A stretch of 64,000 bases of DNA from Anianabacter salinae (GTDB taxonomy: Bacteria > Pseudomonadota > Alphaproteobacteria > Rhodobacterales > Rhodobacteraceae), in the NCBI RefSeq assembly GCF_019061145.1, contig NZ_JAHQZS010000004.1:248001-312000 (forward strand), read 5' to 3'. The notes under the pieces were generated by a model. That model was not told the DNA's origin. It saw only the letters and a list, made by a program, of their open reading frames with translations, and made no database searches. A program made the translations under genes and the position numbers. Shown in pieces: positions 11,712 to 15,369 of the stretch (the stretch's first letter is position 1; each line of letters begins with the position of its first letter).

Positions 11712-12677
11712 ATGACCGACATGACAGACCGCAAACCGCCCCTCGCCCTCTACCTCGCCGCCCCCCGTGGGTTCTGCGCAGGCGTGGACCGCGCCATCAA
11801 GATCGTCGAGATGGCGCTGCAGAAATGGGGCGCGCCGGTCTATGTGCGCCACGAGATCGTGCACAACAAATACGTCGTCGACGGGCTGCGCGCGCAAGGC
11901 GCCGTGTTCGTCGAGGAACTCGACGACTGCCCGCCCGACCGCCCGGTGATCTTTTCCGCGCACGGTGTGCCAAAGGCTGTCCCGGCCGAGGCGGCGCGGC
12001 GCGAGATGGTTTATGTCGATGCCACCTGCCCGCTGGTCAGCAAGGTCCATATCGAGGCGGAGCGCCACCACGAGCAGGGCCGCCAGATGGTGATGATCGG
12101 CCACGCGGGCCACCCCGAGACGCTGGGCACCATGGGGCAACTGCCGGACGGCGAGGTGATCCTGGTCGAGACGGTGGACGACGTGGCGGGGATAGAGGTG
12201 CGCGACCCCGATGCGCTGGCCTTCATCACGCAGACGACGCTGTCGGTGGATGACACGGCGGGGATCGTCGCGGCGCTCAAGGCGCGGGTTCCCAATATCG
12301 TCGGGCCGCACAAGGAAGACATCTGTTACGCCACGACGAACCGGCAGGCGGCGGTCAAGGCGATGGCGCCGGGCTGCGACGCTCTGCTGGTGATCGGGGC
12401 GCCGAACTCGTCGAACTCGAAACGGCTGGTCGAGGTGGGGGCGCAGGCGGGGTGCCGCTATGCGCAGCTGGTCCAGCGCGCCGCCGACATCGACTGGCGC
12501 GCGCTCGAAGGCATCCGGTCCGTGGGGATCACGGCCGGGGCGTCGGCACCTGAAGTGCTGGTCAACGAGGTTATTGACGCCTTCCGCGCCCGGTTCGACG
12601 TGACGGTCAAACCGGTGGTGACGGCAGAAGAGAACGTCGAATTCAAGGTCCCGCGCGTGCTGCGCGAACCTGCCTGA
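11712..12677 (+). CDS. ispH: 4-hydroxy-3-methylbut-2-enyl diphosphate reductase
   Basis: The last enzyme of the MEP isoprenoid pathway, reducing HMBPP to IPP and DMAPP with a [4Fe-4S] cluster. The three cluster cysteines are visible: Cys22 in [11 protein letters not shown], Cys106 in DATCPLVSK and Cys205 in [11 protein letters not shown]. The substrate motifs [12 protein letters not shown] and [14 protein letters not shown] are intact. Its 321-aa length is normal. A second in-frame ATG four codons in is an alternative start. Together with the DXP-dependent pdxJ it shows a DXP-using lifestyle. Confidence 0.98.
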
Positions 12678-13059
12678 GGGATCGCGCCCCCGTGTCCTGA
12701 TGCTGCGGTCCTGATGCTGCGCCCCGTTCGGCGGGGCGGCGGTGCGGCGGGCGGATGCCCTGCGGATAGAAGAAGATCGGCGCCGTGTCCTTGCGGACAG
12801 ACCACGACGCGGGGGCTGTCATCCCCCCGCGATGCCCGGCAAGGGAGTGCCCCCCTCTTACCGCTTCAAGCCTGACGGGTGGGGCCAAGTGTCGGGCCCG
12901 TTGGGTCATCTTCGATGCTGCAGCGAGCGGGAAGATGACGAGGAAGGGTTAGGAAGTGGTTGGGGGAAAGGGCGGTGAACAGTGCTTTTGGGTGGGCCGC
13001 GTTGACTTTTTGTTCACGTTGCGAACCTATGTAGTGCGAATGTGAACCGAAGGCGCGAT
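12678..13059. other. Intergenic region before the RM genes
   Basis: About 380 bp without a supported gene. It holds a short tandem repeat (TCCTGATGCTGCG twice, ~12696-12721), a GC-rich hairpin just after it, and a 9-bp perfect inverted repeat GTCATCTTC (12905-12913) / GAAGATGAC (12931-12939). The AT-richer promoter region of the methyltransferase begins near 13000 (TTGACT at 13002). Open frames here are short and have no ribosome sites. Confidence 0.6.
13011..13047 (+). promoter_or_regulatory. Operator-like repeat upstream of the methyltransferase
   Basis: GTTCAC (13012-13017) and GTGAAC (13042-13047) form an inverted repeat. Inside it, GCGAA occurs twice in direct orientation (TTGCGAAC and GTGCGAAT). 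It lies between TTGACT (13002-13007) and the ATG at 13060, exactly where a repressor would control the RM unit. No separate controller gene is visible, so the methyltransferase itself is a candidate binder, which is inference. Confidence 0.45.
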
Positions 13060-14031
13060 ATGCAGAGCAATCTTACATCTATTGAGCTTTGCGCGGGTGC
13101 CGGCGGGCAAGCGCTTGGTATCGAGAATGCGGGTTTCGATCATCAGGCGTGCGTCGAAATCGATAACTGGTGTCGGGCCACTCTGAACCTCAACAGGCCA
13201 GATTGGAACGTGCTCGACGGCGACCAGTCTGATCTGACCCAATTCGATCCGCGCCCATTTGCCGGTGTTGACCTGGTGGCAGGTGGCGTCCCTTGCCCGC
13301 CCTTTTCGAAGGCAGGAAAACAACTTGGCGCAGCAGATGAACGCGACCTGTTTCCGCACGCGCTTCATGTCGTCGACCAAATACGTCCCAAGGCGGTGAT
13401 GTTGGAGAATGTCCGGGGATTCCTTGATGCCGTCTTCCACGACTACCGGCAAAAGCTGAAATCCCAACTGAAGGCTATGGGATACACGTTCGCTGAATGG
13501 CACCTTTACAACGCATCCGACTTTGGCGTGCCTCAACTACGCCCCCGCGTGGTGATCGTCGCCGTCCATGACAACTACGCCGAGGATTTCGATTGGCCGA
13601 AAGGCAATGATCTGCAACCTCCTACGGTGGGAAAGTGCCTCCACGATCTTATGAGTGCAAATGGATGGCGTGGAGCCGACGCTTGGGCTTTGCTCGCCGA
13701 TGAGATTGCGCCCACAATCGTAGGAGGCTCGAAAAAGCATGGAGGTCCGGACCTTGGCCCGACGCGGGCGCGTCGGGCATGGGAAGCCCTTGGAGTGAAC
13801 GGCAAGACAATCTCTGATGAAGCCCCCGAAGCGGATTTTGAAGGGATGCCGCGCCTGACCGTGAGAATGGTCGCGCGGCTTCAGGGCTTTCCAGATGATT
13901 GGAAATTCGCCGGGCGCAAGACGGCTTCATACCGACAAGTGGGCAACGCCTTTCCGCCGCCAGTGGCCGAGGCTGTCGCCCGCAACCTGCGCGCAGCCAT
14001 CACGGCGCGCCGCCTCTACGCCGTCGCGTAG
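13060..14031 (+). CDS. DNA (cytosine-5) methyltransferase of an NgoMIV-type RM system
   Basis: Protects the host by methylating cytosine at carbon 5. The 323-aa protein has the C5 motifs in order: motif I ELCAGAGGQALG (residues 9-20), motif IV GGVPCPPFS with catalytic Cys79, motif VI ENV (116-118), motif VIII QLRPR (159-163), a target-recognition region near 185-255, and motif X QVGNAFPPPVAEA. I chose the ATG at 13060 with AAGG 6 bases upstream. A GTG at 13042 in frame lies inside the operator-like repeat. Its stop overlaps the endonuclease start by one base. GC is lower than in its neighbours, suggesting acquisition. The GCCGGC specificity is inferred from the partner. Confidence 0.95.
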   Translation: MQSNLTSIELCAGAGGQALGIENAGFDHQACVEIDNWCRATLNLNRPDWNVLDGDQSDLTQFDPRPFAGVDLVAGGVPCPPFSKAGKQLGAADERDLFPHALHVVDQIRPKAVMLENVRGFLDAVFHDYRQKLKSQLKAMGYTFAEWHLYNASDFGVPQLRPRVVIVAVHDNYAEDFDWPKGNDLQPPTVGKCLHDLMSANGWRGADAWALLADEIAPTIVGGSKKHGGPDLGPTRARRAWEALGVNGKTISDEAPEADFEGMPRLTVRMVARLQGFPDDWKFAGRKTASYRQVGNAFPPPVAEAVARNLRAAITARRLYAVA

Positions 14032-14870
14032 TGGCGGCCTGGCTGCTCGAAGCGCGGCGCTTGTTTCACGCCGAGTGTCTGTCGGCGCCAATTTCCGAGA
14101 CGAACGGCGTGCCGTCCATTGCCGACGTGTCCAACCGCAGGAGCCGTGAAATCGCTTCTGGTATTGTCGCAAGGATCGGGGCCAGCAGCGTCCACGCGAC
14201 TAAGCCGGCGGGACAGACGGCCGGAAGCATGTTCGAAACCGCGACACAGAACTTTGTCTCGTCCTGCTTCGCACAAGTCCGGCATCTTCGGCCCGGGACG
14301 TTCATCACTGCCAAGGCGCAGGCCATCGCTCAGTTCGATCAGTACAGCCACCTTGAAGACCTTCACGCTCTCGCATTGGGGAGCAAAGAATTGCGCACCC
14401 TCCTTGGCAGCGACTATCTGATGAAGCCCGATGTCGTGGTTCTGAGGCAGCCAGAGGCGGATGCAACGATCAATCAGGACCGTTTGCTGGTCGATGAAAC
14501 CGTGGCCCGGCGCACGTCGCTGAGAGAGGCGAATGGTGCAAGGGCCACTTTGCACGCATCTATAAGCTGCAAACTGACCATCCGATCTGACCGGGTCCAG
14601 AACACGCGATCCGAGGCCTTGAACCTTGTGCGGAACCGCAAGGGGCGCTTGCCCCACATCGTGGCAGTTACCGCAGAACCCCTTCCATCGCGCATCGCCG
14701 CAATTGCCCTTGGCACTGGCGACATGGACTGCGTCTATCACTTCGCTTTGCCTGAACTGATCGAAACGCTGACTGAATTGCAAAGCGACAGCCTGGAACT
14801 TGTCGAAACAATGGTTGAAGGACAGCGGTTGCGCGACATCGCCGACCTTCCATTGGATCTGGTGATCTAG
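14031..14870 (+). CDS. Type II restriction endonuclease, NgoMIV family (predicted GCCGGC)
   Basis: The 279-aa protein resembles NgoMIV (286 aa, G^CCGGC) along its length as I remember that sequence. The active site is complete: Glu69 (SMFETA), Asp134 in KPDVVV, Lys181 in SISCK and Glu195. The Asp-to-Lys spacing of 47 and Lys-to-Glu spacing of 14 equal those of NgoMIV. The DNA-reading box RSDR (185-188), which contacts the CCGG core in this family, is intact. LNLVRNRKGRLPHI is also conserved. I chose the GTG at 14031 (VAAWLLEARRLFHAECL), which aligns with the NgoMIV N-terminus. An ATG at 13899 would add 44 unsupported residues overlapping the methyltransferase gene. Confidence 0.94.
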   Translation: MAAWLLEARRLFHAECLSAPISETNGVPSIADVSNRRSREIASGIVARIGASSVHATKPAGQTAGSMFETATQNFVSSCFAQVRHLRPGTFITAKAQAIAQFDQYSHLEDLHALALGSKELRTLLGSDYLMKPDVVVLRQPEADATINQDRLLVDETVARRTSLREANGARATLHASISCKLTIRSDRVQNTRSEALNLVRNRKGRLPHIVAVTAEPLPSRIAAIALGTGDMDCVYHFALPELIETLTELQSDSLELVETMVEGQRLRDIADLPLDLVI

Positions 14871-14910
14871 CCCCCCTTCCATCCCCCGCCACATACGTTA
14901 CATACCCCCC

Positions 14911-15369
14911 ATGTTCGGACATGACATCCCGCGTGGCGCGCTGATCCTTGGGTTGGCGGGGCTTCTCCCTTTCGTCTGGGGCGCGCTGACGCTGGTCTCG
15001 GTCGAGGCGGCGGAATTCGGGATGCGGATGCTGGGGCCGCGCTTTATCGGCCCCTTCGTGCTGCTGAATTACGGCACGATCATCCTTGCCTTCATGTCCG
15101 GTGTGCTCTGGGGTTTCGCCGCCAGGGGACAGGGTGCGACCGCGACTGCGGGATACGCGCTGTCCGTGGTGCCGGCGCTCTGGGCGTTCTTCTTCGTGGG
15201 CGGCGGCGCGCAGTCTGCTGCGATCATCCTGATCGCGGGATATATCGGACTGCTGGGGCTCGACTGGACCTTCTGGCGACAGGGCCTTGCCCCGCGCTGG
15301 TGGATGCAGCTTCGGATCCCGCTTAGCGCTGTCGTCATCATGTGCCTTGCCACAGGAGTATTGAGATGA
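14911..15369 (+). CDS. DUF3429 membrane protein
   Basis: A 152-aa integral membrane protein with about five hydrophobic segments, matching the DUF3429 family (PFVWGALTLVSVEAAEFG, YGTIILAFMSGVLWGFA). Its function is unknown. The gene starts 40 bp after the RM unit, marking the return to high-GC core sequence. Its stop overlaps the start of the following methyltransferase (ATGA, 15366-15369), so they are translationally coupled. Confidence 0.87.
   Translation: MFGHDIPRGALILGLAGLLPFVWGALTLVSVEAAEFGMRMLGPRFIGPFVLLNYGTIILAFMSGVLWGFAARGQGATATAGYALSVVPALWAFFFVGGGAQSAAIILIAGYIGLLGLDWTFWRQGLAPRWWMQLRIPLSAVVIMCLATGVLR

Follow-up and report, generated by a model that had tools for sequence, protein, structure and literature searches.

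A complete NgoMIV-family restriction-modification unit, almost certainly acquired horizontally, between ispH and a DUF3429 gene of Anianabacter salinae

Two adjacent genes lying between ispH and a DUF3429 gene in Anianabacter salinae raise the question of whether they form a complete restriction-modification (RM) unit, which DNA site such a unit would recognize and how it came to lie there. We addressed this question in a window of 64,000 nucleotides (the whole stretch of DNA analysed), for which an original prediction had proposed an NgoMIV-type system. The features discussed are collected in Table 1.

Table 1. Features of the RM locus, in window coordinates.
Feature	Coordinates	Strand	Details
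C5 cytosine DNA methyltransferase, M.NgoMIV-like, predicted GCCGGC protector	13060..14031	+	323 aa; PF00145, tblastn
NgoMIV-family type II restriction endonuclease	14031..14870	+	279 aa, GTG start; PF09015, PDB 1FIU, 11/11 functional residues
Putative promoter of the RM unit	13003..13034	+	TTGACTTTTTGTTC ... CCTATGT; putative function from upstream alignment
Inserted segment between ispH and DUF3429	12678..14910	.	Interval bounded by flanking genes, not by mapped insertion ends
ispH	11712-12677		Left flank of inserted segment
DUF3429 gene	14911-15369		Right flank of inserted segment

The endonuclease and its methyltransferase

The endonuclease frame is full length and stop-free. In a Pfam profile search it scored 330.8 bits against PF09015 (NgoMIV_restric; E = 7.7e-99; curated cut-off 23.2), covering positions 13-275 of the 275 in the profile, and a search of all solved structures matched it to NgoMIV (1FIU/4ABT) at E = 4.5e-80 over a full-length alignment. 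No other notable match was found among solved structures, and no NCBIfam model matched the protein. With the NgoMIV gene read from a N. gonorrhoeae record as reference, the alignment has 148 identities in 278 residues (53%), enough for the solved homologue to settle the fold. Judged from sequence, this match is far above chance, and the original prediction of an NgoMIV-type endonuclease, to be compared with NgoMIV itself, is borne out by both searches.

All 11 listed catalytic and base-reading residues of NgoMIV are retained. The active-site residues D134, K181 and E195 align with NgoMIV D140, K187 and E201 at equal spacings, and R185, S186, D187 and R188 correspond one to one to R191, S192, D193 and R194, exactly as had been predicted from the translation; the other identical pairs (NgoMIV to window) are D34 to D32, Q63 to Q62, E70 to E69 and R227 to R221. 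The NgoMIV numbers E70, D140, K187, R191, D193 and R194 are those that we take to denote functional residues. The endonuclease also satisfies the CCGG-family active-site pattern PD-X(21-53)-K-X(12-13)-E, and the catalytic positions are essentially invariant among about 90 relatives. The PD..K..E active site, NgoMIV E201 included, and the R-(D/E)R motif were described for the CCGG family in a study of BsaWI, in which the outer G:C pair is reported to be read in NgoMIV by Q63, S192, D34 and R227 (PMC4652773). The window protein contains the R-(D/E)R motif and all four outer base-pair residues.

A cognate-type methyltransferase adjoins the endonuclease. Its frame is intact from ATG at 13060 to TAG at 14029-14031, matches PF00145 (DNA_methylase) completely (E = 4.3e-66) and aligns by tblastn with the gene that immediately precedes NgoMIV in N. 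gonorrhoeae (E = 1e-126), the recognition region around PTIVGGSKKHGGPDLGPTRARRAW being nearly unchanged. The original prediction had placed the endonuclease one base from a complete C5 methyltransferase; the enzyme is indeed complete, but instead of a gap there is an overlap, the stop codon sharing one base with the endonuclease start GTG (14031-14033). The closest relatives have TGATG or TAATG at this junction, their ATG start occupying the equivalent place, and the GTG start is therefore well supported. Use of GTG instead of the relatives' ATG may lower endonuclease expression. One GCCGGC site lies within each gene, at 13099 and 14204, as had been noted from the sequence.

Genomic context and putative promoter

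The RM pair is preceded by HPPK, NYN, VTT and ispH and followed by DUF3429, a methyltransferase and rnhA; as originally claimed, neither a Vsr nor a mobility gene is found among these immediate neighbours, and the pair is lower in GC than its surroundings (0.59 in both genes, with 0.517 at 14521-14580, compared with 0.658 over the window). We compared this locus with empty sites at the family level, among genomes of Rhodobacteraceae, where relatives of the host have ispH, DUF3429, a methyltransferase and rnhA together as one block. The spacing between ispH and DUF3429 is about 2-20 bases in four of these genomes (G034, G005, G001, G032) and 2.2 kb, with the RM pair, in the window. Because the two genes abut in several relatives, the RM pair is an insertion, and its context supports a self-contained RM unit placed within a housekeeping gene cluster. 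Around 12600-15000, a search for terminal repeats of an element showed only short, chance-like repeats. In other genomes the RM copies lie elsewhere, next to neighbours that differ from those of the window.

Other relatives carry different genes in the same gap, such as an acyltransferase in G035, a glutathione S-transferase in G031 and, in G027, a frame of 45% GC without a Pfam match. The junction consequently seems to tolerate insertions and is possibly an insertion-tolerant place. Among the loci considered (the window interval and L124, L126, L128, L129, L131 and L132), the genes inserted at the junction vary between Rhodobacteraceae, and in others the junction is empty.

Alignment of the 140 bases upstream of the methyltransferase at 16 loci revealed a single stretch in common with other Rhodobacteraceae copies, TTGACATTTTGTTC followed by a -10-like CGCGATAT. 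This promoter-like block is kept in most Rhodobacteraceae copies and is missing from pAES2 and G105. As the sole shared upstream stretch, it suggests that the promoter travels with the RM genes. Imperfect inverted repeats, made up of GTTCACGTTGCGAAC and a GTGAAC close to it, surround the -10 region at 13015-13052 and may be an operator.

GCCGGC depletion in the host

Over 462 kb of host sequence we counted 108 GCCGGC sites, whereas a maximal-order Markov estimate predicts 503 (ratio 0.21, about five-fold depletion). Carriers of the family (n = 8) have lower ratios on average than non-carriers (n = 12; one-sided p = 0.07 before correction, the genomes being related), and GCCGGC ranks joint first among the 39 palindromes in this comparison. 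At least one non-carrier, G015, is nevertheless as depleted as the host, with a ratio of 0.14, so that carriers and non-carriers are not clearly separated. We therefore rejected depletion as proof of activity, given this non-carrier and the p value of 0.07; since non-carriers can be depleted too, it supports activity weakly, and it would fit a system that has long been active.

Methyltransferase partners across the NgoMIV family

NgoMIV-family endonucleases are associated with different protecting enzymes. A C5 methyltransferase like that of the window was found at 38 of 95 family loci and a divergent C5 enzyme at 5, while 48 loci have an SPPY methyltransferase (PF01555 in the 4 tested) and 4 have no detected partner. 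The SPPY amino-methyltransferases, which are unrelated to the C5 enzyme, take its place and precede the endonuclease, occur within L016-L081, many of them from Chloroflexota, Cyanobacteriota and Planctomycetota, with further ones in other phyla; most copies in Pseudomonadota have a C5 partner. Judging by the SPPY motif, these partners probably methylate N4-cytosine. On a tree of 88 endonucleases, partner types require 7 changes against 41 in shuffles, a strong clustering which indicates that exchanges of partner are rare. It seems likely that NgoMIV-family endonucleases swapped their protecting enzyme during evolution, one site being protected by two chemistries (C5 and amino). A brief literature search did not find this split stated. 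It could serve to study how an endonuclease gains a new protector. The window pair falls within the C5 branch, and its partner type is ordinary.

The family includes decayed members. In G374 (L140:6352-6576) only about 75 C-terminal residues remain, and in G356 (L141) a 36-position match contains a stop. The G374 remnant adjoins a SIR2-like frame, which suggests defence-gene turnover. A viral contig (L099:5837-6301) encodes a Vsr mismatch endonuclease after an NgoMIV-family endonuclease accompanied by a divergent C5 methyltransferase.

Recognition site and proposed function

Since the residues that read the outer G:C pair are kept along with the catalytic ones, GCCGGC is the expected recognition site of the endonuclease. 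The endonuclease residues and the methyltransferase recognition stretch each match the NgoMIV system, so that the two proteins point to this site independently. The CCGG family at large uses one fold to read differing flanking bases (PMC4652773), and an NgoMIV homologue could accordingly read another site, e.g., RCCGGY like Cfr10I or Bse634I. We regard this as highly improbable here, given that the counterparts of Q63, S192, D34 and R227 are all present, that NgoMIV is the lone match among solved enzymes and that the methyltransferase recognition stretch agrees with that of the enzyme beside NgoMIV.

The RM pair is almost certainly a complete, horizontally gained type II unit of the NgoMIV family directed against incoming DNA. 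The GTG start of the endonuclease, in place of ATG, and the truncated or degenerate NgoMIV genes of the same family (G374 and G356) would fit a decayed or silent remnant, in which the endonuclease is not made or is inactive and the methyltransferase acts alone; this is very unlikely in view of the stop-free full-length frames, the unbroken set of functional residues, the retained promoter-like block and the strong GCCGGC depletion of the host. Somewhat less unlikely, though still improbable, is an element serving mainly its own maintenance through addiction after loss rather than defence. Relatives do reside on small plasmids (pAES2, 4.5 kb) and viral contigs, and a stabilisation role was proposed for pAES2 (PMC3832669), but the window copy lies in a chromosome-like core gene cluster, where missegregation poses no risk of loss, and addiction and defence can coexist.

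According to the defence reading that we prefer, the unit, an insertion between ispH and DUF3429, was gained by horizontal transfer. Both genes would be expressed as a single transcript from the unit's own promoter, the methyltransferase being translated first and the endonuclease following by coupling from its weaker GTG start. The methyltransferase would add a 5-methyl group to cytosine at host GCCGGC sites, and the endonuclease, by homology with NgoMIV a presumed tetramer binding two sites (type IIF), would cleave unmethylated G^CCGGC in entering phage or plasmid DNA. On this basis, a GCCGGC barrier to DNA transfer is expected in the host bacterium.

Comparison with known systems

The NgoMIV system of N. 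gonorrhoeae (1FIU, 4ABT) resembles the window unit in both proteins over their full length, in gene order and in all catalytic and base-reading residues; the window unit differs in endonuclease identity (53%), host, one-base overlap of the genes and location between ispH and DUF3429. An NgoMIV-like system with the predicted site GCCGGC was also published for pLM16A1 (PMC4447125). The RM module of Paracoccus aestuarii pAES2 (NC_019288), published earlier (PMC3832669), likewise pairs a C5 methyltransferase with an NgoMIV-like endonuclease through a 1-bp overlap, in a host of the same order. Unlike the window copy, it resides on a 4.5-kb plasmid, shows 53% identity and lacks the conserved promoter block. 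In a plasmid collection, 16 records contain a relative, two of them being chromosome-sized N. gonorrhoeae entries.

The close copies found in Rhodobacter capsulatus DSM 1710 (L002) and on IMG/VR viral contigs (L094-L097) have the same arrangement, with endonucleases 77-79% and methyltransferases 82-85% identical to those of the window, but their neighbours are phage- or plasmid-like, e.g., a serine resolvase in L094. The known restriction family gains a well-supported member located in a core gene cluster, and the window pair is an ordinary further member of the NgoMIV family whose arrangement has been published before.
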